39,319 nt of DNA from an uncultured Clostridia bacterium (GTDB lineage Bacteria > Bacillota > Clostridia > Oscillospirales > Acutalibacteraceae): NCBI GenBank assembly GCA_946186245.1, contig CAMHMN010000021.1, positions 1-39,319 on the forward strand, read 5' to 3'. Made by a program: the position numbers and the translations under genes. Below, piece by piece: positions 6,964-36,026 of this stretch (positions are counted from its first letter, which is position 1; the number at the start of each line of letters is the position of its first letter). The notes beneath the pieces were generated by a model. It was not told the DNA's origin. It worked only from the letters and a program-made list of their open reading frames with translations, and searched no databases.

Positions 6964-8244
6964 TTAGTCTGAGGATTCAATTGTGCCCGCGTCGAGTCGT
7001 ATCATTTTGACATAGACCACCCGTTTTGGGGTTGCCTCGGAGACGGAAATGCGGTAGCCGCTGAATTCCACGCCCTCGCCGACCGAAGGAATCTTGCCCA
7101 TGCGTTCGGTGAGCCAGCCGCCGATGGTGACGGCTTCGGTGTTCTCGTCCTCCTGGATCTCCAGCATTTCAAAGACCTTGCTGAGAGAAGCGATACCCGA
7201 AACGATGTATCCTCCGTCGTCGCAATGCTCGATTTCGCTGATGATCTCGTCATTTTCGTCCCAGATTTCGCCCACCAGCTCTTCCAGAATGTCTTCCAGC
7301 GTAATGATGCCCACCGTTCCGCCGAATTCGTCAATGACGACCGCCATGTGGCACCTCGCGTGCTGGAAGATTTTCAGCAGCTCGGAGATTTTGGTGTTCT
7401 TGGGAATATACTCCACCGAAATCAGCATGGAGGGGATGTCTACCGTCTTGTCGAAATACATCTTCTCGTAAAAATCCCGTTCATGAAGGATTCCCACAAT
7501 GTTGTCGATGGTACCCTTGTAGACGGGAATGCGGGAGAAGTGGTTGTTCTTGAAGATCGAGGCGAATTTTTCCGGCGGTGTGGAGATTTCCGCCGCCAGA
7601 ATGTCAACGCGGGGCGTGAGAATGTGTACCACTTCAAGGTCGCTGAATTCAATGGCGGAACGGATCAACTCTCCCTGGTTCTCGCCGATGCCCCCTTCGT
7701 TCTGGGCTTCATCGACAATGGTGATCAGCTCGTCGTCGGTAATCGCCCCGCCTCCCTTCACGTCAATCAGCCTGGAAATGAGCTTTTTCCACTGGGTGAA
7801 AATCCAGTTGATGGGCGTGAGCAGCGTCTGCAATACCGAGATGAAGGGCGCGGAGAACATCGCGAAGCTCTCGGGAACTTCCTTTGCAATGCTTTTCGGT
7901 GTGATCTCGCTGAAAATCAGCAGCAGCACGGTCATGACCAGGGTGGAAATCGCCGCGCCGGCATCCCCGAAGAATGAAGTAAACAGCAGGGTGGCAATGG
8001 AAGAAGCGGCGATATTGACGATGTTGTTTCCGACCAGCACGGTGGAAAGCAGCTTGTCAAAATTCTCGGTGAGTTTGAGCGCACGGGAAGCCTTTTTGTT
8101 TCCGTCGGAGGCCATATTTTTGAGGCGTATCCGGTTCACACCGGAAAAGGCGGTTTCCGTCGCGGAAAAATACGCCGAAAAGATAATGAGCAGTACCAAA
8201 GATAGTATGCTTGCATATGTGGATTTCATGTCGTTATTATTCAT
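6964..8244 (-). CDS. DUF21-CBS-CorC_HlyC membrane protein (CNNM/TlyC family)
   Basis: The 426-residue protein has the three-part CNNM-like layout. A DUF21 membrane domain (about residues 10-190) starts with S-A-Y-F-S-A-T-E-T-A-F-S and contains a S-E-I-T-P-K-S-I-A-K-E motif. Two CBS domains (about 205-325) begin near V-V-H-I-L-T-P-R-V-D-I and include V-V-I-D-E-F-G-G-T-V-G-I-I-T-L-E-D. A C-terminal CorC_HlyC domain (about 345-420) contains G-G-W-L-T-E-R-M-G-K-I-P. Relatives are linked to Mg2+ efflux or homeostasis (CNNM, B. subtilis MpfA), with CBS domains sensing adenine nucleotides; the older name hemolysin is misleading. GGAGG at 8248-8252 precedes the ATG by only 3 nt, so a start at the ATG at 8229 is an alternative. 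Confidence 0.92.
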   Translation of the reverse strand: MNNNDMKSTYASILSLVLLIIFSAYFSATETAFSGVNRIRLKNMASDGNKKASRALKLTENFDKLLSTVLVGNNIVNIAASSIATLLFTSFFGDAGAAISTLVMTVLLLIFSEITPKSIAKEVPESFAMFSAPFISVLQTLLTPINWIFTQWKKLISRLIDVKGGGAITDDELITIVDEAQNEGGIGENQGELIRSAIEFSDLEVVHILTPRVDILAAEISTPPEKFASIFKNNHFSRIPVYKGTIDNIVGILHERDFYEKMYFDKTVDIPSMLISVEYIPKNTKISELLKIFQHARCHMAVVIDEFGGTVGIITLEDILEELVGEIWDENDEIISEIEHCDDGGYIVSGIASLSKVFEMLEIQEDENTEAVTIGGWLTERMGKIPSVGEGVEFSGYRISVSEATPKRVVYVKMIRLDAGTIESSD

Positions 8245-8282
8245 TAACCTCCCGATCAGTCTGAAGTGTGAATTTCATTTTT

Positions 8283-8311
8283 ATTTTATATCATTCCCAC
8301 TGATAATGCAA
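8283..8311 (-). promoter_or_regulatory. Promoter of the DUF21/CBS gene
   Basis: On the minus strand TTGCAT (8311-8306), a 17-bp spacer, TAAAAT (8288-8283). Confidence 0.65.
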
Positions 8312-8381
8312 CCGATATTTTGAAAAAGCCGTTGATTTTTGTGATGGACAGGACTTCTTGCCGTCATTCAAAAAATAGGTG

Positions 8382-8410
8382 TTGAACCAAACGCATAAAT
8401 GGAGTATAAT
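8382..8410 (+). promoter_or_regulatory. Promoter of the ABC exporter operon
   Basis: TTGAAC (8382-8387), a 17-bp spacer and a perfect TATAAT (8405-8410). Transcription would start near 8417. Confidence 0.8.
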
Positions 8411-8453
8411 AAAAAATAACACATCTATCACAAACGCGGGGATGGTTGAAAAA

Positions 8454-10205
8454 ATGTACAAATTACTCCGATTCTTAAAAGACTACAAAAAGGAAAGCAT
8501 TCTGGGACCGCTCTTCAAGCTGCTGGAGGCTTCGTTTGAGCTGCTGGTGCCGCTGGTGGTGGCTGCCATCATCGACAAGGGCATCGGCGGCGCGGACAGG
8601 GGCTATACCGTGAAAATGTGCCTGCTGCTGACAGGACTGGGCGTGGTGGGACTCATCAGCTCGGTCACCGCGCAGTTCTTTGCCGCCAAAGCCGCCGTCG
8701 GTTTCGCCGAGAAGGTGCGGCACGCGCTGTTCAAACACATTCAAAGCCTTTCCTATTCGGACATTGATTCCCTCGGCACTTCTACGCTTGTCACCCGCAT
8801 GACCAGCGACATGAACCAGGTGCAGTACGGGGTGAATATGACGCTGCGTCTGCTGCTGCGTTCGCCCTTCGTGGTGTTCGGCGCGATGATCATGGCCTTC
8901 ACGGTGGACGCGAAGGCGGCGCTGACCTTCGTCGTGACCATTCCGCTGCTGTCGGTAGTGGTGTTCGGCATCATGCTGGTCTGTATTCCGCTCTACCGCA
9001 AGGTACAGGAGAAGCTGGACGGCGTGCTGCTTTCCACCCGCGAGAATCTCACCGGCGTGCGCGTCATCCGTGCCTTCTGTAAGGAAGAAGAAGAAACGCA
9101 GCGCTTTCTCGATCGCAATGAAGCCCTCACCGACGCGCAGAAGTTCGTCGGAAGGATCTCCGCGCTGATGAATCCCGTCACGCTGGTGATCATCAACGGC
9201 TCGATCATTGCGCTGATCTACATCGGCGCACTGCGGGTGAATCAGGGAATCATCACCCAGGGCGCGGTGGTCGCACTCTACAATTATATGTCGCAGATCC
9301 TGGTGGAATTAATCAAGCTCGCCAATCTCATTATCAGCGTCACCAAATCCATCGCCTGCGGCAACCGCATTGAGTCGGTGCTGGAAATCCAGCCTTCCAT
9401 GACCTTCCCAAGTGAAGCAGAAGCGAAGCAGGGCGATTCTTCCTGCGAATACACTGTTGAATTCCGACACGCCGACCTGCGCTACGGAACATCCAATGAA
9501 AACGCGCTGACGGACATCGACTTCCGCGTAAAGAGGGGAGAGACAGTGGGCGTCATCGGCGGCACCGGTTCCGGCAAAAGCTCGCTGGTCAATATGATTC
9601 CGCGTTTCTACGACGCCTTCGCCGGCGAGGTGCTGGTGGACGGGGTGAACGTCAGGGAATACACCCGCGGCGCACTCCGTGAGAAGGTAGGAATGGTGCC
9701 ACAGAAGGCGGTGCTTTTCAAAGGCACGATACGGGACAATATGCGCTGGGGCAATCCCGGCGCTTCGGACGAGGAAATCCATGCCGCCATTGCCACGGCG
9801 CAGGCATCCGAAGTGGTGGCGGGCAAGCAGGGGGGGCTGGATTATGTGATTGCCCAGGGCGGAAAGAATCTGTCGGGCGGTCAGCGGCAGCGATTGACCA
9901 TTGCACGTGCCCTCGTGAAAAAACCGGAAATCCTGATTCTTGACGACAGCGCGTCAGCACTGGACTTCGCGACCGACGCGGCGCTGCGCAAGGCAATCAA
10001 GGCAATGGAAGGCAGTCCGACGGTCTTCATCGTGTCGCAGCGAGCCGCTTCCATCGCCCACGCCGACAGAATCATCGTCCTCGACGACGGAAAGATCGTC
10101 GGCATGGGGAAGCACGATGCGCTTCTGGAAAGCTGCGAAGTCTACCGCGAGATTTACCATTCCCAATTCAGCACCGAGAAAAACGGGAAGGAGGGTGCGA
10201 AATGA
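8454..10205 (+). CDS. Type IV ABC exporter half-transporter with degenerate ATP site
   Basis: This 583-residue protein has an N-terminal six-helix permease domain (about 1-315) and an ATPase domain. Walker A is G-G-T-G-S-G-K-S-S (about 366-374), the signature L-S-G-G-Q (about 473) is canonical, but Walker B reads I-L-I-L-D-D-S, with Asp in place of the catalytic Glu, and the switch reads V-S-Q-R, with Gln in place of His. This is the pattern of the degenerate subunit of heterodimers such as BmrC, LmrC or TM287. The partner at 10202 has the complementary residues and overlaps by 4 nt. Together they should export a drug-like, lipid or peptide substrate across the cytoplasmic membrane. The start at 8454 is preferred (GGGGATGG 8438-8445 upstream); 8442 is possible. 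Confidence 0.93.
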   Translation: MYKLLRFLKDYKKESILGPLFKLLEASFELLVPLVVAAIIDKGIGGADRGYTVKMCLLLTGLGVVGLISSVTAQFFAAKAAVGFAEKVRHALFKHIQSLSYSDIDSLGTSTLVTRMTSDMNQVQYGVNMTLRLLLRSPFVVFGAMIMAFTVDAKAALTFVVTIPLLSVVVFGIMLVCIPLYRKVQEKLDGVLLSTRENLTGVRVIRAFCKEEEETQRFLDRNEALTDAQKFVGRISALMNPVTLVIINGSIIALIYIGALRVNQGIITQGAVVALYNYMSQILVELIKLANLIISVTKSIACGNRIESVLEIQPSMTFPSEAEAKQGDSSCEYTVEFRHADLRYGTSNENALTDIDFRVKRGETVGVIGGTGSGKSSLVNMIPRFYDAFAGEVLVDGVNVREYTRGALREKVGMVPQKAVLFKGTIRDNMRWGNPGASDEEIHAAIATAQASEVVAGKQGGLDYVIAQGGKNLSGGQRQRLTIARALVKKPEILILDDSASALDFATDAALRKAIKAMEGSPTVFIVSQRAASIAHADRIIVLDDGKIVGMGKHDALLESCEVYREIYHSQFSTEKNGKEGAK

Positions 10206-17840: not shown

Positions 17841-18602
17841 ATGACAATGAACAGAATTGGTACCGGTAAACTATTCCGGTGTGTGTGCGGCCTGCTGGTT
17901 GCGGCACTCATGCTGTCAGCTTCAGCCGTTTCATGCGGCAAGCCGGAGCAGATCGCAACCGGGTCGGCGTCGGAAGAATCGTATGTCTTTGAGGACGAGG
18001 AAACCGGGAAGTCGCTCCTGCGATTCCTGGACAATTACTGCAAATGGTACGCCGCCAGTCCTTACGGCGACTGGGATTTCGACTCCTCAAGAGCAGCCGA
18101 CGGGGACGGAAACATCCTGGCCTGTATTGCTTCTTCAAAACCGTGCGTTGACTGGTCACTGTACTCTGACAGAAGCATGGAGGACAGATTTGTCGAAAAT
18201 CCCTATGATCCCAGAGGCTGGGCTGCTCAATCCAATGCCTATTACGTTTTTGACGAGAAAACAGTGGAATTCATCGCGCGGGAAATATTCAACCTCAGCG
18301 AGGGTGACATTGACAGACTGGCAATCAGCGGAGAGATAAAACGGCTGTTTTACAGGCAGAACGAAAAATACTATACGATTTCGGATGATAATCTCCAGTC
18401 GCTGGTCGAGATAAGCTCTGTCTTCATCAGACCGGCAGGGGACAGATATACCGTCACCTTCATAGCAAGCGGTGTGAGCGAACAGAACGACGAGGGTCTG
18501 GTGAGGGTGGAATATCACAATTGTACCGCCGAAATGGCACTCAAGACCATTCACGGCAGGGAATATTGGACACTGTACAGATTTGACTCGAAAGAATCAT
18601 GA
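17841..18602 (+). CDS. Putative lipoprotein, function unknown
   Basis: The 253-residue protein begins with a basic N-region (R-I-G-T-G-K-L-F-R), a hydrophobic core and a lipobox-like A-V-S-C (Cys at about residue 32), which indicates export and lipid anchoring at the outer face of the membrane. The mature part is acidic, rich in Tyr and Asp, with a Ser/Glu-rich linker after the Cys. I recognise no domain. It ends in beta-strand-like segments (R-Y-T-V-T-F-I-A-S-G). AAGGGG lies 13-18 nt upstream of ATG 17841 and 17847. No clear promoter was seen between the preceding terminator and this gene. The membrane-anchored PP2C phosphatase gene follows 160 bp later with its own promoter. Confidence 0.8.
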   Translation: MTMNRIGTGKLFRCVCGLLVAALMLSASAVSCGKPEQIATGSASEESYVFEDEETGKSLLRFLDNYCKWYAASPYGDWDFDSSRAADGDGNILACIASSKPCVDWSLYSDRSMEDRFVENPYDPRGWAAQSNAYYVFDEKTVEFIAREIFNLSEGDIDRLAISGEIKRLFYRQNEKYYTISDDNLQSLVEISSVFIRPAGDRYTVTFIASGVSEQNDEGLVRVEYHNCTAEMALKTIHGREYWTLYRFDSKES

Positions 18603-18764: not shown

Positions 18765-20081
18765 TTGAGCGCGGCAAACAAGATACTGATCCGTGCGGCT
18801 GCCGAATCCAATGTAGGCAACGCCAGAGGCAACAATGAGGATAATGTTTACTTCAACGGCGATTACATAACGCCCCGCAATATCAGCAGACCTTTTGCTA
18901 TCAAGACCGGCGAGTACACCGAAGTCAATATCTTTGCCGTGTTTGACGGAATGGGCCGAAACAATACAGGCTCCTTTGCCTCACTTGTCGCAGCGACACG
19001 GCTCGACGCGCTGGCCGACCGGATTTCCTTTGATCCTGACGCTACGCCGGACGACGCGGTGCTGGAATATATGCAGGACACCAACGAACTGATCCGCGAC
19101 CAGCGACGGGAAACGGGCGGAGTTCGCACCGCTTCCACCATGGCATTGCTGATCATTGAGCACGGCAACGCCCATGTATATAATGTAGGCGACAGCCGGG
19201 TATATCTTTACCGCGACAAACAGCTGGTCAAGCTGACGCGCGATCATGTAGCGGTGGAAGGACAGAAGAGCGTCGCCCTGACCGAGGAAGGCATACGCCA
19301 CGGCAGGATCACGAAATTTCTCGGCATGAACAGCCGGGAGGGCAAGATGGAGCCTTACCGCGCAAAGCCCTTTAAAGTGAAGAAGGGGGATAAATTCCTT
19401 GTCTGCAGCGACGGCGTGACCGATCAGCTGGACGAGGACGAGATCACGGTCTGTCTCGGCAAGCGCAAGGATCCCTTCGGACATACCAATGAAATCATGG
19501 CGCTGTCCATGAGCGACGACAGCGACGACAATGTATCGGCCATCGTGGTGGAAGCCATCGAGCCGGGCATTCACATCACGCAGAATATGATCATGGTGGC
19601 GATGGGCTGTCTGATTATGGCATTCGGCGTGGCAGTGGGATTTGTGTTTGGCTGGCTTGTGGGCAGCACGTCGTCGGAGTACGAGGGGCTGGAAGATTTC
19701 AATGAAGACTATATCGTCACGCCGGCCAGTAATTCGGACCTTTCGTCGGATACCCTGGAGACGAGCATGGTATCGTCCACCGTTCCGACCACCGTGCCGA
19801 ATCAGGACAAGACCAGTTCCGAAGAAGTGCAGTACACCGTCTACGGACTGACGCTGCGTCAGAACAACGACATTACCCTCAAGAGAGGAAAAAACGTGAC
19901 GCTTTCGGTGGAGATCAATCCGGACAACGTCCCGCAGAGCTATGTGCAGTGGAGCTCGGACAACGAGAAGGTTGCCACCGTCGATGAGAACGGCAAGGTC
20001 AAAGCCCTGAAGCACGGACAGGCCACTATCACCGCAAGCGCCGGAAATGTGACGGTTACCTGCCTGATACGGGTGCCGTAA
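18765..20081 (+). CDS. Membrane-anchored PP2C phosphatase with extracytoplasmic BIG2 domain
   Basis: This 438-residue protein combines a Ser/Thr phosphatase of the PP2C family (about 8-266), one membrane helix (about 274-299), a Ser/Thr-rich linker (300-355) and a bacterial Ig-like BIG2 domain (about 356-438: L-T-L-R...V-Q-W-S-S-D-N-E-K-V-A-T-V-D-E-N-G-K-V-K-A-L). Metal-binding residues look intact: N-N-E-D-N (Asp26), V-F-D-G-M-G (Asp61), C-S-D-G (Asp216) and D-D-N (Asp255). The enzyme should face the cytoplasm and the Ig-like domain the wall, so it may sense the envelope and dephosphorylate cytoplasmic targets. No ATG fits; the TTG at 18765 follows a GTGGGG site by 10 nt. The giant gene follows 60 bp downstream. 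Confidence 0.88.
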   Translation: MSAANKILIRAAAESNVGNARGNNEDNVYFNGDYITPRNISRPFAIKTGEYTEVNIFAVFDGMGRNNTGSFASLVAATRLDALADRISFDPDATPDDAVLEYMQDTNELIRDQRRETGGVRTASTMALLIIEHGNAHVYNVGDSRVYLYRDKQLVKLTRDHVAVEGQKSVALTEEGIRHGRITKFLGMNSREGKMEPYRAKPFKVKKGDKFLVCSDGVTDQLDEDEITVCLGKRKDPFGHTNEIMALSMSDDSDDNVSAIVVEAIEPGIHITQNMIMVAMGCLIMAFGVAVGFVFGWLVGSTSSEYEGLEDFNEDYIVTPASNSDLSSDTLETSMVSSTVPTTVPNQDKTSSEEVQYTVYGLTLRQNNDITLKRGKNVTLSVEINPDNVPQSYVQWSSDNEKVATVDENGKVKALKHGQATITASAGNVTVTCLIRVP

Positions 20082-20141
20082 TCAACTGAAATAACAGATT
20101 TCTTATGCAATAATTTCGCCGGATGAACGGCGATAGGAAGG

Positions 20142-23100
20142 ATGGTCGTAAAGTTGGCTTTTTTCAAAAGATTCAAACATCAGAATACGAAAAAACGCTA
20201 CGAAAATCCTGCTGTCAATCAAGCTATTGATGAAATCAACAAACGCAAGGAAGAAGAATCCGACAGCCGCAGGGGAGCGGAGAATAAGCCCGAACCCAAA
20301 AAACGCACCGCTGCGCCTTCCACCGGCAAAAAGGAAGGCTTTGCGCCTGTACTGGCGTTTGACCCGAGCGGATCCGATGTCGATCATCTGGTCTACAAGC
20401 CGGTTCAGATTCCGCCCAAAGCCACACGTTCGGAACAGTTCGACAAGGAGATGGAAAATCTCGCCGGCATATACGGTGTGGACAAGACGGAGGCGGCAAG
20501 CTATGCGGAAAGCCCTGCGCCGATTATCCCCTCCATGGCGGGGGCTTCGGATGAAAAGCCGGTTCCGGTTCGCCGTCTGCCGGGAAGCGGCGAATCGCTC
20601 GCCTTTATGGACCTCAGTGACCGCACCGATCTGCAGCCGGAGGAGATAGAGGAAGCGAGCGAAATCTTCGGCATCAAGTACCCTGCCGGTTTCCGGACAG
20701 ACCTTGTCAATTACGCAGGAAGAGAAATCGACCTCAGCGATTTCAGCCTGGTTGAGAACCTGCGCTGGAAGCACATCGAAAACGCCGCGGACATCAGCGG
20801 CATTGTCTTTCCGGCCACGATCGACACCGATTCCTTCAATTTCTACGACAGAAATATCAGCGGCTGCGATTTCAGCTCGGTCTACGGACTGCGCTGGAGG
20901 CACATTCAGAGTGCGCGTGACATAGCCGCCATCAAATATCCCGCCACCTTTGACATAGAAAACGCCGTTTTTGCCGCCAGAAATATTTCGGGCAGTGATT
21001 TCAGCCTGATCGGCAGCCTTCGCTGGGAGCATATCATGAGTGCTTCCGATATCAGCGGCATCAAATACCCGGCGACCTTCGACGTATCGGAGGCGAAATT
21101 CTATGGCAGGGACATTTCCGGCAGCGACTTCTCGCTGTGCAAGGGACTGAAATGGCAGCATATCAGCCTTGCGTCGGATCTCAGCGGCATCATATATCCC
21201 GAAAATTTTGATTACAGCGAATGCGACTTTACCGACATAGACATTTCCGGCAGCGATTTTTCCAAGGCGAACAGCCTGAAATGGAGCCAGCTTGCCAACG
21301 CCTATGATATTACCAACATCAAATATCCCTCGTGTTTCGATCCGGACAGCGCCGACTTTACCGGCAAGGACATTTCCGGAAGCAATTTCAGCCGGGTAGG
21401 AAGCCTGCGCTTTGCGCATATCAAACCCGCAAAGATCATCCGCAAGATTATCTATCCGCCTCAGTTTGATATAGACGAAGCGGATTTTACCGACCGCGAC
21501 ATCGACCGTTCGGATTTCTCGCTTCTGACCGGCTTCAACTGGGAAAGCGTCAAGCTGGCTGCGAGCAGGGATAACGTGATTTATCCCGCCGGCTTTGTGG
21601 AGCCGGTTCCCTCCGACGAAGACGTGGAAGGCGCGATGCTGATCTATCTGCTGCGGATTTACAGCCGTGTACAGCAGGACAAATTCAGCACGGAGTCATT
21701 TTATTCAGATATTACGGCGCTGTACCCCGGACTCACCGATTCGGACGCGGCGGCGCTCATTGAACGCTCGACCCATAAATGGGAGAGAGAAAACGGCGCG
21801 AAGCTGATCCGTCAGGACGCGCGATGTGCCCATACAGGGGATAAGCTGTTCATGACGAAACTGGGCTTCAAACTGCTCTATCCTGTTTGCGGCGGTGAAA
21901 GGTCGGCAGCCCTGCTGCGGGAGTCTTTCGGTGAAATAGTACGCCGACGCGAACAGGAAAAATTTGAGCAGCGGCTTTACGACCTCCAGTGCGGCAAATA
22001 CCTTTCGGCAGCGGAACTGACCGAAATAGGCTTTACCCCGGGCAAGCTGCCGCAGAAAGCGGAACTTCAGGTGGCAGTGGATAAGCCCAAGCGGGTGCTG
22101 CCCGTTCCGACCGAACTGGAAAGCATGGAAGACAATGGGCGCAGCGGCAGCCGTGTCCGCGCCGTTCCGATCACCGAGCCGCTGGTTCCGCCGGAGGTTT
22201 CGCCTCTTACCGAAATAGCGGACAAGGTGAAGGTGCGTGTCGTCCAGCTTGAACCGCCTATTCTCGCAACGGTCAAGCCGATAGATCCCGCGACGCTTCT
22301 CGCAGACAGCAAGAAGGAAGAAATACCGGAGCAGACCGAAACGCCAGAAACCCCCGAAACGCCGGAATCCACGGACGTTCCCAAAGAAGAGCCGTCCGAA
22401 GTGCCGGCTGAACCGGAGGCGGCAGAACCTGAATCGGCTGCCGAAGAAAATCCGCAGGAGCCACCCGAAACGGAAGAAACGCAGTCCGAACAGGACGAGC
22501 CGGCTGAACCCTCCGATACGTCATTCGAGCCGGTCAGCATAGAGCAGTACACCGAGCCTGCTGCGCCCGAACCGGAAAGGAGAGGCTACAGCTTCGGGGA
22601 AAGAATTGCGCCCATAGAGATTGACGATTCCCCGGCCAAGCCCGCCAAGCCCGCCGAACCCGCCGAACCCGCCGAGCCGGAATATATTCCCATTTCGCAG
22701 ACAGATCTGTTCACGGATTATCCCTCACCGCCACAGAAACCGGAACCGCCGGAAACCGATGAACCTTCTCCGGTGGGAGAGAGCATCGGCGTGCGTGAGG
22801 AAAGCTTTGAACCGGTTCAGATACGCATTGACAAGATGCGGGACAGCGCGGCGGACGAAGCGGAAGAAAAACTGCGCCGCAAAAAGCTCAGTGATGAGGA
22901 AAAAGCCATACGCACCGGCGTCATGGGAATGCTGCTCTACATAAACCAGAGCATTTCCGACTCCGATCTCACCAATTCCGAGCTGTTCAGCGAATTCATG
23001 CGGATCTATCCCGGAGCGCAGCCGAAGGAAACGGCTGCCATGGCGCAGTTCGCCGCCAATACCCTCAGCGGCATCAATGCCAAGACCCGCGCCAAGCTGT

Positions 23101-25925
23101 TTATGTTTGCCACCAAAGCGGATCCGGCGGTGAAACACAGGCTGATGGACTTTGCCCTGGAGCGTTACAGTTATAAGCTGCGTGTCGCAGAGGACGAAGC
23201 CTCCTTCCGAGACTTTTTGCAGACGCTGTCCACCACGCTCTTTGAGGAAGCCGGCGATTATGAATACACCTCCTATCTGATGTCAAAGGGCATTCTGCAG
23301 AATCCGCCGGAGAAGCGCGATGCCCATTACAAGCAGATTCCATTTGAACACGGAGTGGGCAAGGCAAATCTTTACGCCAACACCCGCTATCCCTATTACC
23401 GCACGCTGGAACAGGTCGGCTTTTTGCATTTCACCTTTGAAGCCATACGCGACAGCCTCAAAATCGAGCTGAGCGACAGCCATTACTATGAAGAGCTGGA
23501 AGATCTGGTCTATCGCAAATGCGAGCCGGTTCTTATGAAGTTTGTGGTGATTGAAACCACGATGGGTCTGCTTTATCTAGAACAAAGAACCCTGGCCGAC
23601 TGGGGCGTTGACGAAGAATTCGTCTGGCGCGCAGCCGAAAGCAACATGAAGAACACGCAGTTCAGGGCAAAATATTCCTTCAGTACCGAAGATTGCAGTC
23701 CCTTCCGATACATTCAGCATGATCTGGCCAACTATCTGCTTGCCATGCCGGAAAAGCTGAGTGAACTGGCGGAAGGCAAGGATCTGATTCTGACGGCGCC
23801 CTGCAGAGAGATCATCTATATTGACTTCTACGAGCTGTCGTCGATCAGGGAAATGCTCAGTTTCAGCGCCCACTATGACTGCACCATTCAATTGGGCGGC
23901 GATCAGTACGAACACCCCTTTACTCCGGATGTGTTTATTTATCACGCCGACGACGGTTCCCTGGAACGTGTCAACGACGAGACCTACATTCTGCTGGGCG
24001 ATTCCGTCGCAAGACGTGAAGTGCTGAAGGCAGTGCTGCCCAAGGAGATGAAGGTCGATATCGAAGCCATCGTCAAGCCCAGGACCACCGACGAAATCGA
24101 GATTACAGGCGACGATACCTATAATCTACAGGCTGCCGCCTTCACCATTCTGCGTCTTTATTCAGAGTTGAACGGCGACACCGACTACACTCTCCCGCAG
24201 AATGCGGTGATGGCAGTATTTGACGATCTGATGATATCCTTTGACGCCATTTATCCGCCGGTTCGCGGCAGGGAGCAGCCGGATCCGATGCAGCATATCG
24301 ACGACTGCGCCAGGATGGTCGCCCGCGGAGGCAAGACAGTGTGCTGGCTGCTGGTGCAGGCGATTCAGCAGCTCTGTGGGGACATCAATTACGAGACGCC
24401 CGCCAGCGCGAATATCAGACAGACCACCCTCCGCGAGATTTACGGCGACAATGCCAATGCCGTATGGCTCAACTGCGCGACGGCGACGGAATTCCGCAGA
24501 CGGTATGAAGCCGTCCGTCCATTCCATGAGATACCGGTTGCGAACCAGCATCTGACCATTCTGGACGCAAAGGTGGAAGTAGCCATGCATGCGCTGGTCA
24601 TGCTGTTCCATCAGTACGGACAGCACTACGCGCTCGGACAGGTGCGAAGACATCTCTATAAGATGATGCCTGACATCAAATTCTGCTATGAAATCAACCA
24701 GAGCGCGTGGCTTCCGACACCCGGAGACGACGTGGATGTCGATGTGCAGTCCATCGGAATGATTTTCCGGGGCTTTGACAACGCGACGCAGGAGAATATT
24801 CTCACCGGGCTTGCCAATGCCATAGGCGACCGCGACCTTGCGGAAGGCGGCTGGGGGCTGCTGTATTTCATCAAATTTGTGAAATACGCATATCTTGACC
24901 CGTCGGATATGGTAGAGAGATACTTCATCTCACGCAGCAGACTCATTCCCTCACAGAATATCTTAAAGCAGCTTTACTACAAAGATCTGAACAACGAATT
25001 CATCAAGCACATGCGCAAGTCGGGCAAACAGGTGCTGTCCGAATACGGCGACAGTTTCGAGGTAATCCGAGGCAACGCCCCCGGCGCGAACGAACCCAAA
25101 AACGGCTCGCCTGTGGACGATTTTGAAAATGTGCTGAATTTCGCCCGTGAGATCGAGCAGAAAATGAGCGGTCCCGCCGAGGAATCCTCCGAAGGCGAAA
25201 TGATAAATCTGCAGGGCAACCGTCCCATGTCCACCACGAAGCCGGATATACAGCTCCGTCAGGTGGAAAACGGATTCCTGGAAAAGCGGCTGAATTTTGT
25301 GCTCGAGCCGGTAGACGCCGCTATGGCGGATCAGCTTGTGGACGCGGCACACTTTGTCACCAAGCTCTTCCATGTGCCTGAGATAGAATTCCGCGCCAAC
25401 AACGACATCGAATGCGAGCTTCACTACGGCATTATCCGCAGCAAGAATCAGGTTATAGCGCTGCGTTCTCTGGCGTGGACGGTAGCGCAGCTGATGTACG
25501 AATCAGGGCGTGAACTGCGCGACGTGACGGATCAGGATATCTTTCGGGCGAACGATATCGTCGAGCAATGCGACCGCAACAATTACAAGAAATCCGGCGC
25601 ATTCCCGACATTGTGTTCCATGCCGGTAGACGAAGGAATGTACATTTCCGCCTATCAGGAATACATCTTCTTTGCGCAGGAACTCATGCCGGAAGTCAAG
25701 CTGGCGAGTCTGTTTTCGCTGCAGCAGGAGCTTGCGGACATTGCCCCCATGATGAAGGTTGTCTATGAAATACTGAAGAACGAGCGGCGCGACGGGCCTG
25801 TGCAACCTGGCACCGTGCTGGCCGACGCCCTCTGCGCATGGAGTGCCTACTGCTTTGCGGCAGTGGATTCCTTTGAAGTCGTCGCGGGTCCCTCCGCCTA
25901 CAGCTTCGCGCAGATCAAGAGATAA
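20142..25925 (+). CDS. Giant 43-residue-repeat protein of unknown function (1927 aa)
   Basis: I do not recognise this family. Layout from sequence: a basic N-terminus (1-65); a disordered part to about 150; eight repeats of exactly 43 residues (about 153-488) with consensus D-I-S-G-S-D-F-S-L-x3-L-R-W-x-H-I-x2-A-S-D-I-S and a G-I-K-Y-P-A-T-F half; a helical domain (494-650); a Pro/Glu/Ala-rich linker (about 725-885); and a C-terminal region (about 900-1927). A segment at 494-550 resembles one at 919-980 (L-L-x-I-Y/N...A/R-I/L-Y-P-G), suggesting an internal duplication. The stretch near 1130-1170 (M-G-L-L-Y-L-E...L-A-D-W-G-V-D-E-E-F) is weakly like DUF1444. No signal peptide or membrane helix was seen, so it is probably cytoplasmic. 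It lies 60 bp after a PP2C gene. ATG 20142 has AGGA 3 nt upstream; TTG 20154 is an alternative start. Confidence 0.88.
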   Translation: MVVKLAFFKRFKHQNTKKRYENPAVNQAIDEINKRKEEESDSRRGAENKPEPKKRTAAPSTGKKEGFAPVLAFDPSGSDVDHLVYKPVQIPPKATRSEQFDKEMENLAGIYGVDKTEAASYAESPAPIIPSMAGASDEKPVPVRRLPGSGESLAFMDLSDRTDLQPEEIEEASEIFGIKYPAGFRTDLVNYAGREIDLSDFSLVENLRWKHIENAADISGIVFPATIDTDSFNFYDRNISGCDFSSVYGLRWRHIQSARDIAAIKYPATFDIENAVFAARNISGSDFSLIGSLRWEHIMSASDISGIKYPATFDVSEAKFYGRDISGSDFSLCKGLKWQHISLASDLSGIIYPENFDYSECDFTDIDISGSDFSKANSLKWSQLANAYDITNIKYPSCFDPDSADFTGKDISGSNFSRVGSLRFAHIKPAKIIRKIIYPPQFDIDEADFTDRDIDRSDFSLLTGFNWESVKLAASRDNVIYPAGFVEPVPSDEDVEGAMLIYLLRIYSRVQQDKFSTESFYSDITALYPGLTDSDAAALIERSTHKWERENGAKLIRQDARCAHTGDKLFMTKLGFKLLYPVCGGERSAALLRESFGEIVRRREQEKFEQRLYDLQCGKYLSAAELTEIGFTPGKLPQKAELQVAVDKPKRVLPVPTELESMEDNGRSGSRVRAVPITEPLVPPEVSPLTEIADKVKVRVVQLEPPILATVKPIDPATLLADSKKEEIPEQTETPETPETPESTDVPKEEPSEVPAEPEAAEPESAAEENPQEPPETEETQSEQDEPAEPSDTSFEPVSIEQYTEPAAPEPERRGYSFGERIAPIEIDDSPAKPAKPAEPAEPAEPEYIPISQTDLFTDYPSPPQKPEPPETDEPSPVGESIGVREESFEPVQIRIDKMRDSAADEAEEKLRRKKLSDEEKAIRTGVMGMLLYINQSISDSDLTNSELFSEFMRIYPGAQPKETAAMAQFAANTLSGINAKTRAKLFMFATKADPAVKHRLMDFALERYSYKLRVAEDEASFRDFLQTLSTTLFEEAGDYEYTSYLMSKGILQNPPEKRDAHYKQIPFEHGVGKANLYANTRYPYYRTLEQVGFLHFTFEAIRDSLKIELSDSHYYEELEDLVYRKCEPVLMKFVVIETTMGLLYLEQRTLADWGVDEEFVWRAAESNMKNTQFRAKYSFSTEDCSPFRYIQHDLANYLLAMPEKLSELAEGKDLILTAPCREIIYIDFYELSSIREMLSFSAHYDCTIQLGGDQYEHPFTPDVFIYHADDGSLERVNDETYILLGDSVARREVLKAVLPKEMKVDIEAIVKPRTTDEIEITGDDTYNLQAAAFTILRLYSELNGDTDYTLPQNAVMAVFDDLMISFDAIYPPVRGREQPDPMQHIDDCARMVARGGKTVCWLLVQAIQQLCGDINYETPASANIRQTTLREIYGDNANAVWLNCATATEFRRRYEAVRPFHEIPVANQHLTILDAKVEVAMHALVMLFHQYGQHYALGQVRRHLYKMMPDIKFCYEINQSAWLPTPGDDVDVDVQSIGMIFRGFDNATQENILTGLANAIGDRDLAEGGWGLLYFIKFVKYAYLDPSDMVERYFISRSRLIPSQNILKQLYYKDLNNEFIKHMRKSGKQVLSEYGDSFEVIRGNAPGANEPKNGSPVDDFENVLNFAREIEQKMSGPAEESSEGEMINLQGNRPMSTTKPDIQLRQVENGFLEKRLNFVLEPVDAAMADQLVDAAHFVTKLFHVPEIEFRANNDIECELHYGIIRSKNQVIALRSLAWTVAQLMYESGRELRDVTDQDIFRANDIVEQCDRNNYKKSGAFPTLCSMPVDEGMYISAYQEYIFFAQELMPEVKLASLFSLQQELADIAPMMKVVYEILKNERRDGPVQPGTVLADALCAWSAYCFAAVDSFEVVAGPSAYSFAQIKR
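20598..21605 (+). repeat. Eight in-frame repeats with 129-bp (43-aa) period
   Basis: The anchor tripeptide L-R-W (or L-K-W, L-R-F, F-N-W) falls at residues 207, 250, 293, 336, 379, 422 and 465 of the giant protein, always 43 residues apart. A first, diverged copy has L-Q-P at 164. Each unit contains two pentapeptide-like turns (A-x-F-x-G-R and D-I-S-G-S-D-F-S) joined to a short helix-like R-W-x-H-I-x-x-A. No indel occurs in eight copies. Confidence 0.9.
22635..22679 (+). repeat. 9-bp tandem repeat coding Pro-Ala-Lys/Glu
   Basis: Five copies of a 9-bp unit (GCCAAGCCC twice, GCCGAACCC twice, GCCGAGCCG once) encode an A-K-P / A-E-P run in the Pro-rich linker of the giant protein. Such arrays can change in copy number by slippage without breaking the frame. 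Confidence 0.85.
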
Positions 25926-25943: not shown

Positions 25944-25990
25944 AAAAAGTCCTTTTTCCGGATTCCGACCCGGGAAAGGGACTTTTTTTG
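25944..25990 (+). terminator. Terminator after the giant gene
   Basis: AAAAGTCC (25945-25952) pairs with GGGACTTTT (25978-25986), with T/A and CCGG/CCGGG pairing inside, followed by a T-run. It starts about 20 bp after the stop. Confidence 0.88.
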
Positions 25991-34283: not shown

Positions 34284-36026
34284 ATGGAATTCAAAGGTCT
34301 GTGCCTTGGCTGCATGAGTAATAAGGGGACTTCTATGGAGTGTCCGAAATGCGGTTATGTGGAGGGTACTCCTCAGGTTTTACCTTATCTGGAACCCGGT
34401 ACAGTGCTGAAAGAAAGATTTATCATAGGCAAGCATCTCAGTGCCAACGGAGAAGGCGTCACCTATATCGGTTATGATATCAGTGCCAACAAAAAAGTCA
34501 CCGTGAGGGAGTATCTGCCAAAGACGCTCTGCTCAAGGGTAAAGGATGATGACAACATCATCATTGCCTCCGGCAACAAGCTGGTATATCAGGATTATCT
34601 GCAGGATTTCATGGAAATAGGCAGAGCGCTCACCAAGCTGTCCAACCTGCCGTCCATCGTTCCGGTGGTCGATTTGTTTGAAGCGAACAAGACTGCATAT
34701 ATTGTCTATGAATATGTGGACGGCAAACCGCTCGATGAGATCATCAAGCGCGCCCGCAGATTCACGTGGGAGGAAACAAGGCCGTTGTTCCTTCCGCTCA
34801 TTTCCACCGTCAATTCCGCCCATTCCATAGGGCTGGTACACTTCGGCATCTGTCCGGAGAACATCATCATGACCCGAAGCGGCACATTGAAGCTGCAGGG
34901 CTTTGGCAGTCCGGACGCCCATCTTGCCGAAACAGAGCTGACCGCCGAATTCTACGACGGTTTCAGTGCCATCGAGCAGTATTCTCTCGAAGGTAAAAAA
35001 GGCAAGTGGACAGACGTTTACGCGATGTGTGCCGTACTGTTTTACGCCCTCACGGGCAAAAGACCGCCTGACGCGGTTTCCCGTTCCTATGAACCGCGGC
35101 TCAATATGCCGGCCGACGTTGCGCAGAATATTCCTACCCATGTGGTGACGGCGCTTGCGGGCGGTCTTCAGGTCAATATCGAGAGCCGCACCCATTCAAT
35201 GGAAGAACTGAAAAATCAACTGACCAATCCTGTACCGCGCAGGGCGGAACCAAAGCCGGCGCCTGCCGTTTCGCCTTCCGCTCCGTCGCCTTCCTACGGT
35301 GACAGATATGTGGATGAACCGGATTATCATGCGCCCGTGCGTTCCACGATGCCTGCCTCTTCCGGGCAGATGAACCGCACCGCCCGTGATTACGAGGAAG
35401 ATGATGACGAGCCGGAGATTTCGCCCTACAAATACGGCATCATTTCGGGTCTGATAGGATTTGTGGTCATCGGTGTCATTGCCTTGATCTGTCTGAATCT
35501 GATCGTGATTCCCATGATGAACAAGGATAACCCCCAGGAGGAGGATGACCCGGTCATTTCCGTTTCGTCACAGGTGGAAGGAAATGAGTCCGAGCCGACG
35601 GTGCTTTACAGAGTGCCCAATCTCGTCAACAAAAAATGGAGCAACGTAAACGGCAACGAGAAGTACAGCAACTTTTACATCCGTCTCTCGGAAGAGGTCT
35701 ACGATGAGAATTTCGAGGAAGGCAAAATCATTTCTCAGTCAGTGGAAGCAGGCTCTGCCGTTGCCAAGAACACCGCTATCAGCGTTGTGGTAAGCAAAGG
35801 CTCCAAAATGCGCATCGTGCCGAACATCATCGGCAAGAACGTCGAGGAAGCCTCAAAGGAACTGGAAAAGGCAGGTCTTCTGCTGGGCGATCAGGCTGAG
35901 GAATACAGCGATGATGTAGAGAGCGGCAAGATCATCCGTCTCAACGGAATCGAACCGGGTAAGAAAATACAGGCGGGCAGCATGATCAATGTGGTTGTCA
36001 GCCTCGGCAAAGAAGAAGAAGATTAA
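34284..36026 (+). CDS. Zinc-ribbon, kinase-fold, TM, two-PASTA protein (probable pseudokinase)
   Basis: The 580-residue protein has a zinc ribbon (Cys7, 10, 20, 23), a Ser/Thr kinase-like fold (about 44-315), a Pro-rich linker, an acidic stretch, one membrane helix (about 384-411) and two PASTA domains outside (about 440-506 and 507-576). The kinase core is degenerate at three key sites. The ATP-binding Lys of V-A-I-K is Arg75 (V-T-V-R-E-Y-L-P). The catalytic HRD is H-F-G (186-188), losing the Asp, although P-E-N (191-193) is kept. DFG is G-F-G (206-208), losing the Mg-binding Asp. The structural D-V-Y-A-M and S-A-I-E-Q-Y parts are intact, so the fold should form. PASTA domains bind peptidoglycan or muropeptides in active relatives (PrkC, PknB). 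AAGGAGA lies 7 nt before the ATG. It has its own promoter and a terminator and is monocistronic. Confidence 0.9.
   Translation: MEFKGLCLGCMSNKGTSMECPKCGYVEGTPQVLPYLEPGTVLKERFIIGKHLSANGEGVTYIGYDISANKKVTVREYLPKTLCSRVKDDDNIIIASGNKLVYQDYLQDFMEIGRALTKLSNLPSIVPVVDLFEANKTAYIVYEYVDGKPLDEIIKRARRFTWEETRPLFLPLISTVNSAHSIGLVHFGICPENIIMTRSGTLKLQGFGSPDAHLAETELTAEFYDGFSAIEQYSLEGKKGKWTDVYAMCAVLFYALTGKRPPDAVSRSYEPRLNMPADVAQNIPTHVVTALAGGLQVNIESRTHSMEELKNQLTNPVPRRAEPKPAPAVSPSAPSPSYGDRYVDEPDYHAPVRSTMPASSGQMNRTARDYEEDDDEPEISPYKYGIISGLIGFVVIGVIALICLNLIVIPMMNKDNPQEEDDPVISVSSQVEGNESEPTVLYRVPNLVNKKWSNVNGNEKYSNFYIRLSEEVYDENFEEGKIISQSVEAGSAVAKNTAISVVVSKGSKMRIVPNIIGKNVEEASKELEKAGLLLGDQAEEYSDDVESGKIIRLNGIEPGKKIQAGSMINVVVSLGKEEED

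Follow-up and report, generated by a model that had tools for sequence, protein, structure and literature searches.

A phosphatase gene and a giant gene side by side

We analysed a 39,319-nucleotide stretch of an uncultured Clostridia bacterium, hereafter referred to as the window, in which a PP2C phosphatase (18765..20081, + strand) and a giant protein (20142..25925, + strand) are encoded one behind the other. The giant frame is real, and ORF calling returned the same 1927 codons counted from ATG that a previous sequence-only reading had described, although the start chosen there is probably wrong. Four codons after ATG 20142 the frame continues TTG-GCT-TTT-TTC-AAA; at two other loci (L012 and L016) the sequence surrounding the ATG is conserved, but the ATG itself does not lie in the reading frame, which opens with the TTG corresponding to 20154. 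Moreover, in 5 of 6 loci from other genera (L050, L051, L053, L054 and L055) translation from the earliest in-frame start codon gives MAFFK or MAIFK, the sixth (L052) having MAIFRK from an internal ATG. Since the ATG is out of frame in L012 and L016 and MAFFK or MAIFK starts recur elsewhere, the true start is probably TTG 20154, giving 1923 residues; residue numbers throughout keep the count from ATG 20142. Downstream of the giant, a consensus scan found a terminator-like hairpin of 18 pairs with a T run (25944..25987, + strand); such sites are hardly commoner in the stretch (11) than in shuffles (mean 10.4). One further copy of the giant (L018, 10001-15904, genome G016) contains a single internal TAG, either an assembly error or a broken copy.

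Hydropathy analysis revealed no transmembrane segment in the giant (highest 19-residue mean 1.55), and the protein is probably cytoplasmic, as proposed earlier. The whole protein had no family match in Pfam (E <= 1), NCBIfam (E <= 0.1) or PADLOC (E <= 0.01), so that its description as a protein of no recognised family holds.

The upstream protein matched PP2C_2 (6.7e-12) and Big_2 (3.8e-16) in Pfam, and its hydropathy maximum (2.5 at residue 276) indicates a putative transmembrane segment at about residues 276-300 between the phosphatase domain and a presumably external Big_2 domain. The same maximum (1.9-2.6, near residues 271-307) was present in 10/10 aligned orthologues, and PP2C together with Big_2 was found by Pfam in all nine proteins scanned, the window's and eight others. 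The catalytic motifs, which we take to include the acidic metal-binding motifs of the PP2C domain, are conserved in 10 aligned orthologues, with DS for DN in the last motif of L054. Judged by its PP2C_2 match and conserved motifs, the gene thus qualifies as a PP2C phosphatase, and it falls short of the Stp1/IreP equivalog NF033484 (116.8 bits versus a curated 230).

Upstream of the phosphatase lies a small lipoprotein-like gene (17841-18602), by eye similar to the upstream genes in L002 and L006. At 34284-36026 we observed a PASTA kinase-like protein with PASTA and kinase matches in Pfam and an N-terminal zinc-ribbon-like stretch. At what we take to be the positions of its HRD-type and DFG-type motifs it reads, by eye, HFG and GFG, and it may therefore be a pseudokinase.

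The gene pair is conserved across genera

The phosphatase stop codon lies 60 bases before ATG 20142, just as had been reported from the sequence. At all 22 giant loci with upstream sequence (L013 and L017, cut off upstream, lie outside this set), the region immediately before the giant matched the window's PP2C in tblastn on the same strand, and no giant was found regularly without the phosphatase, a point on which the earlier reading had staked its proposal. The intergenic gap ranged from 40 to 265 bases (13 loci). In the window this gap contains a promoter-like site (20086-20114, 9 of 12 bases; 13 such sites in the region versus 6.5 in shuffles), which counts against assuming a single transcript.

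We surveyed the two genes by the same procedure in two draws of 300 family genomes, in which the listed genomes agree, with at most five PP2C candidates scored per genome. PP2C matches at E <= 1e-20 occurred in 30/300 genomes, and the best ten (at least 262 bits) are exactly the ten giant-bearing genomes. Nine of these ten matches reach residue 425 or beyond; the remaining one, cut at residue 304 in G028, belongs to a gene with Big_2. The next genome, G244, scored 136 bits over residues 8-298, and this span leaves its match without Big_2. None of the weaker matches listed runs past residue 300, some of them lying in frames of 400-501 residues. The giant and this partner PP2C were both absent from 290/300 sampled family genomes.

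The pair is kept across five genera while its other neighbours vary, among them genes for an amine oxidase, MatE, a polysaccharide deacetylase, a histidine-kinase-like ATPase, a capsule protein, a mannosyltransferase and others. The conserved pair itself includes no kinase. The gene pair is real and conserved, and its repeat is unusual.

Giant matches were found in 20 of the 60 relatives searched. They comprise all 18 genomes sampled from the window's genus (in pieces in two cases), G028 from another genus and G043, whose remote match covers only the C-terminus. The last 995 residues were matched in 10/300 family genomes from five genera (the window's own and four more), and the window's own genome contains one giant match. 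Seventeen giant loci were found among genome contigs titled uncultured Ruminococcus, Clostridiales, Clostridia or Bacillota, although these loci and the genus genomes overlap and are not independent sets. Among the 17 titles, ten have the prefix RUG, presumably for rumen genomes, and two mention compartments of the goat stomach.

A 43-residue repeat under strong constraint

Residues 151-500 of the giant showed 45.9% identity to themselves at an offset of 43 and 42.8% at an offset of 86, whereas shuffles (n = 2000) averaged 6.8% at offset 43 with a maximum of 12.7%. Reading of the residues confirmed the anchors proposed earlier, spaced 43 apart from 207 to 465 (207 LRW, 250 LRW, 293 LRW, 336 LKW, 379 LKW, 422 LRF and 465 FNW). 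The first copy, at 164, is diverged. The array consists of seven full units (residues 164-464) and a half unit from 465 to about 485. On the + strand these are the diverged unit 1 (20631..20759, residues 164-206), unit 2 (20760..20888, residues 207-249), unit 3 (20889..21017, residues 250-292), unit 4 (21018..21146, residues 293-335), unit 5 (21147..21275, residues 336-378), unit 6 (21276..21404, residues 379-421), unit 7 (21405..21533, residues 422-464), the most invariant with 18/43 columns in eight orthologues, and the terminal half unit (21534..21596, residues 465-485). Of the eight exact repeats claimed before, the exact spacing stands; the copies are not identical (44% on average), and the units number seven and a half.

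In five proteins, one per genus, units were on average 44% identical within one protein, whereas a unit and its counterpart in another genus shared a mean of 55%, which suggests that the array is old and its length fixed. Residues 164-485 span exactly 322 residues in 20/20 aligned homologues, bearing out the strict period without indels. The unit consensus is about LRWxHIxxAxDIxGIxYPATFDIxNADFxGRDISGSDFSLVxx. Within it, positions 1, 6, 12, 15, 17, 21, 28, 33 and 38 are hydrophobic in 56/56 units of eight orthologues, and P18 and F38 are invariant in the five proteins from five genera. In the eight orthologues, 100 of the 322 repeat columns are invariant. Invariant residues specific to single units were found in unit 1 (D197), units 2-3 (F223, C242, Y248, A263 and T269) and units 6-7 (N415, R418, P440, I444, D455 and L462), with none in units 4 and 5 (eight orthologues); from the alignment, they are the first candidates for a putative binding face. 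The dN/dS ratio of the repeats against eight relatives (seven computable) was 0.028-0.136, a rough value, as are all those given here, because dS was mostly near or above 1.

AlphaFold predicted a solenoid for the repeats (pLDDT 89.1, pTM 0.80; 15 sequences), which, with the low dN/dS, agrees with the constrained solenoid-like structure expected from the sequence. We read each unit of the model as two coils of about 21-21.5 residues with pentapeptide-type faces and a short helix; in the middle units, predicted bridges recur at five-residue intervals along two faces of every coil.

A repeat that may lie between two solenoid classes

The units resemble pentapeptide repeat proteins (PF00805; Alr5209, QnrB1) in that every one holds pentapeptide-like A/S-D/N-F/I-x-x motifs. 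The window's repeats alone scored 19.6 bits against PF00805, narrowly missing the gathering cut-off of 20.2, while a stand-alone cousin (family f98) passed with 32.2 bits and 5/10 three-unit pieces matched at E <= 1. A sequence search of the PDB gave no match below E 0.08; its three best chains (E 0.09-0.9) include Alr5209 and QnrB1, and the best of all, 3n90, is presumably a pentapeptide repeat protein. The giant differs in its indel-free unit of 43 residues, its two short helices and its contiguous pentapeptide-like motifs, which number at most three under a loose rule, compared with 47 and 17 in two annotated pentapeptide proteins and with a defining number of eight in the excerpted text of PMC8145042. 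A strong profile hit to a known repeat family, which would have refuted the earlier reading, was not obtained for the giant, with the reservation that PF00805 comes close and the cousin passes it. Foldseek with the solenoid model found nothing at E <= 0.001 in either the PDB or a viral library, and no pentapeptide protein was among the 50 structural matches listed, which excludes nothing.

Leucine-rich repeat (LRR) proteins are built on the motif LxxLxLxxN. Compared with the LRR solenoids InlA, LRRC8 and SHOC2, the giant's repeats shared 4-10% identity among the matches listed, and no Pfam LRR family was listed for them at E <= 10, a search in which filters drop most weak matches. The repeat may occupy a place between these two large classes of solenoid. 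A knotted solenoid is the subject of PMC13123833, as far as its excerpt goes.

Several stray family matches were taken as chance, namely PF09855 Zn_ribbon_13 (24.3 versus a cut-off of 23) and the near match PF12655 spore surface protein (24.2 versus 25) in the repeats of L053, and PSI_PsaE, SRP19 and tyr_de_CO2_C, each below its own cut-off, for the repeats alone. PHROG family phrog_15350 (unknown function) matched both the window's repeats (2.1e-5) and the cousin (1.5e-4). Using tblastn, the window's repeats also matched three Caulobacter phages and the cousin one Nostoc plasmid. We rejected a phage origin, as the two proteins read, one from phage RW and the Nostoc one, are plain five-residue pentapeptide arrays without the 43-residue unit, and viral contigs scanned with the cousin and with a three-unit profile yielded no relative.

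A repeat profile matched 4/341 class genomes (the window's own, G927, G908 and G861), of which the G927 match is real and that in G861 had E 0.0036. The G908 match (E 0.0011) was discarded, its 289-residue frame showing no such repeat by eye. The three-unit profile found only the window's own genome among 289 phylum genomes. In 6/60 genomes (G927 and five relatives, from two genera of a second family) we detected a repeat protein of about 460-530 codons, the relatives matching that of G927 along nearly its whole length. The G927 spacings are 43 in 5/9 cases and 44-53 in the other four. The stand-alone 459-residue cousin (L063) shares the repeat with the giant, 43 apart in 5/9 spacings, but consists of repeats only and has several indels, and no phosphatase gene was seen nearby. 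At locus L067, no phosphatase was recognised by eye from the first 70 residues of 15 ORFs of at least 100 codons; the stand-alone repeat protein there (7808-9187) overlaps a short upstream gene by four bases at its start. As the repeat occurs elsewhere without a phosphatase nearby, only the giant, and not the repeat, is tied to the PP2C.

Domains beyond the repeats

The repeats had been described as passing into a Pro/Glu linker. Such a linker is present (P+E = 33% over residues 637-950), but it does not follow directly, as AlphaFold places a helical domain of eight predicted helices in between (21597..22049, + strand, residues 486-636, of which the domain takes up about 492-628). The acidic, Pro/Glu-rich linker (22050..22886, + strand, residues 637-915) is poorly conserved and much shorter in other genera. 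It is followed by a conserved region of unknown fold (22887..25061, + strand, residues 916-1640) and, further on, by a C-terminal domain (25314..25922, + strand, residues 1725-1927).

In eight orthologues, the invariant columns number 8/163 in the N-terminal part, 18/151 in the helical domain, 2/279 in the linker, 105/403 in residues 916-1318, 102/322 in 1319-1640, 3/84 in 1641-1724 and 39/203 in the last domain. Similarly, dN/dS was 0.026-0.064 for residues 916-1640 and 0.158-0.344 for the linker (eight relatives, seven computable). Constraint is strong on the repeats and the C-terminal regions and weak on the N-terminus and the linker.

Within otherwise variable stretches of the giant, we observed PV(L/I)(S/A)(F/Y) in 7/8 orthologues, AP(I/V)IxxM in 6/8 and (Y/F/H)(S/T)FG in 6/8 (L055 has FSFS and L054 lacks it). 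These short motifs lie at 20337-20369, 20505-20543 and 22569-22607 (residues 66-76, 122-134 and 810-822) and are possible binding or modification sites.

The start of the conserved region resembles the helical domain: the comparison with residues 918-1062 scored 39.6, against a maximum of 16.8 in 20 shuffled-column controls (30.4 for a narrower segment), with about residues 498-571 aligned to 926-988 in a possible internal duplication. Eight other segment pairs scored at or near their controls (the largest being S1-S3, 19.1 versus 15.4, and S1-S5, 17.6 versus 16.8). The AlphaFold model of residues 928-1927 had a pLDDT of 33 and is useless.

The C-terminal domain also occurs in a protein of 1213 residues from another family within the order (G043; BLASTP, 26% over 206 columns, E 6e-10). 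The profile of the domain matched 5/394 order genomes, at E 9.2e-17 and 6.1e-18 in two of them (G043 and G362) and weakly in G639 and G570, and only the window's own genome among 245 class genomes. In the G043 protein a BRCT match falls short of the cut-off (19.3 versus 21.3 bits); the protein lies in a cluster (L056, 868-14336) with UvrD-PDDEXK, an exonuclease, a WYL regulator, VWA (DUF2201) and LRR_5-BRCT. PADLOC matched this cluster mostly with generic helicase, exonuclease and WYL models (best 1.2e-60, helicase).

A proposed signalling unit

We tentatively propose, with a confidence somewhat short of even, that the two genes form one signalling unit of a receptor-like phosphatase and a dedicated cytoplasmic partner. 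The upstream protein would be a receptor-like Ser/Thr phosphatase with its PP2C domain in the cytoplasm, a transmembrane segment and Big_2 outside, where this domain may sense something at the cell surface. The solenoid, with some 15 coils in its seven and a half units, would form a rigid platform for binding, either docking to the phosphatase itself or recruiting it to a target. The conserved C-terminal part, tethered by a long disordered linker, would execute the response or pass it on. The best reading would make the giant a scaffold or substrate of this membrane phosphatase; should the C-terminal region be an unrecognised enzyme, scaffold would be the wrong word. The gene partnership is well supported, whereas we infer the mechanism, including physical contact between PP2C and giant, the membrane orientation and the direction of regulation. 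A more specific version, in which a PP2C with a Big_2 sensor and an obligate giant partner on a new two-coil solenoid, pentapeptide-like in part and LRR-like in part, would signal the surface state by dephosphorylation and not through a kinase, is rather doubtful.

In an alternative scheme the giant would be the main substrate of the PP2C: a kinase would phosphorylate its N-terminal tail or acidic linker, removal of the phosphate by the PP2C would switch the C-terminal effector, and the solenoid would bind a third partner. The conserved gene pair and the short motifs kept in disordered parts, (Y/F/H)(S/T)FG in 6/8 and PV(L/I)(S/A)(F/Y) in 7/8 orthologues, fit this scheme; given a linker with 2/279 invariant columns that shrinks in other genera, and a pair without a kinase, we consider it unlikely. 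Great length, a solenoid, a linker and conserved C-terminal regions in a protein without a transmembrane segment by hydropathy would also suit a structural spacer beneath the membrane that links envelope and cytoplasm, the phosphatase controlling only its assembly. Nothing noticed in the sequence points to polymerisation, and such a role seems clearly improbable.

Co-transcription alone can hold genes together, and with gaps of 40 to 265 bases (13 loci) the PP2C and the giant might simply share a transcript, without any direct link between their products. Retention of the pair across five genera with differing neighbours, and its joint absence from 290/300 genomes, make this very improbable. 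The idea that the repeats form a pentapeptide protein of the ordinary kind, a DNA mimic acting on gyrase, draws on the motifs in every unit, the PF00805 scores of the window, the cousin and the three-unit pieces, and the presence of Alr5209 and QnrB1 among the best PDB chains. With at most three contiguous motifs, far from the 47 and 17 of annotated proteins and from the eight given in the excerpt of PMC8145042, it is hardly credible.

Known signalling systems offer partial parallels to the proposed unit. PstP is a membrane PP2C, and the window's PP2C resembles such proteins in being a membrane protein with an external domain. The excerpt of PMC6213207 describes PrkC/PrpC-type kinase-phosphatase pairs, in which a PP2C family phosphatase likewise has a fixed partner gene. 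Compared with these systems and PstP, the window's phosphatase is paired with a giant solenoid protein instead of a kinase, and its external domain is Big_2. The SHOC2-PP1C holophosphatase, as excerpted from PMC9452295, also has a solenoid protein working with a Ser/Thr phosphatase, but serves only as an analogy, as it is eukaryotic and of another phosphatase class, and contact in the giant pair is putative.

Our literature search returned no account of the 43-residue repeats, nor one combining three of pentapeptide repeat, Ruminococcus, PP2C and Big_2, and as far as the searched literature goes the gene pair and the repeat are undescribed. About 1000 conserved C-terminal residues of the giant match no family, and the uncharacterised pair is present in every sampled genome of one uncultured Clostridia genus (18/18). 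If the two genes do form a signalling unit, they would provide a case of a bacterial phosphatase to which a giant protein is dedicated as partner, unlike the kinase-phosphatase pairs described in the excerpt of PMC6213207.
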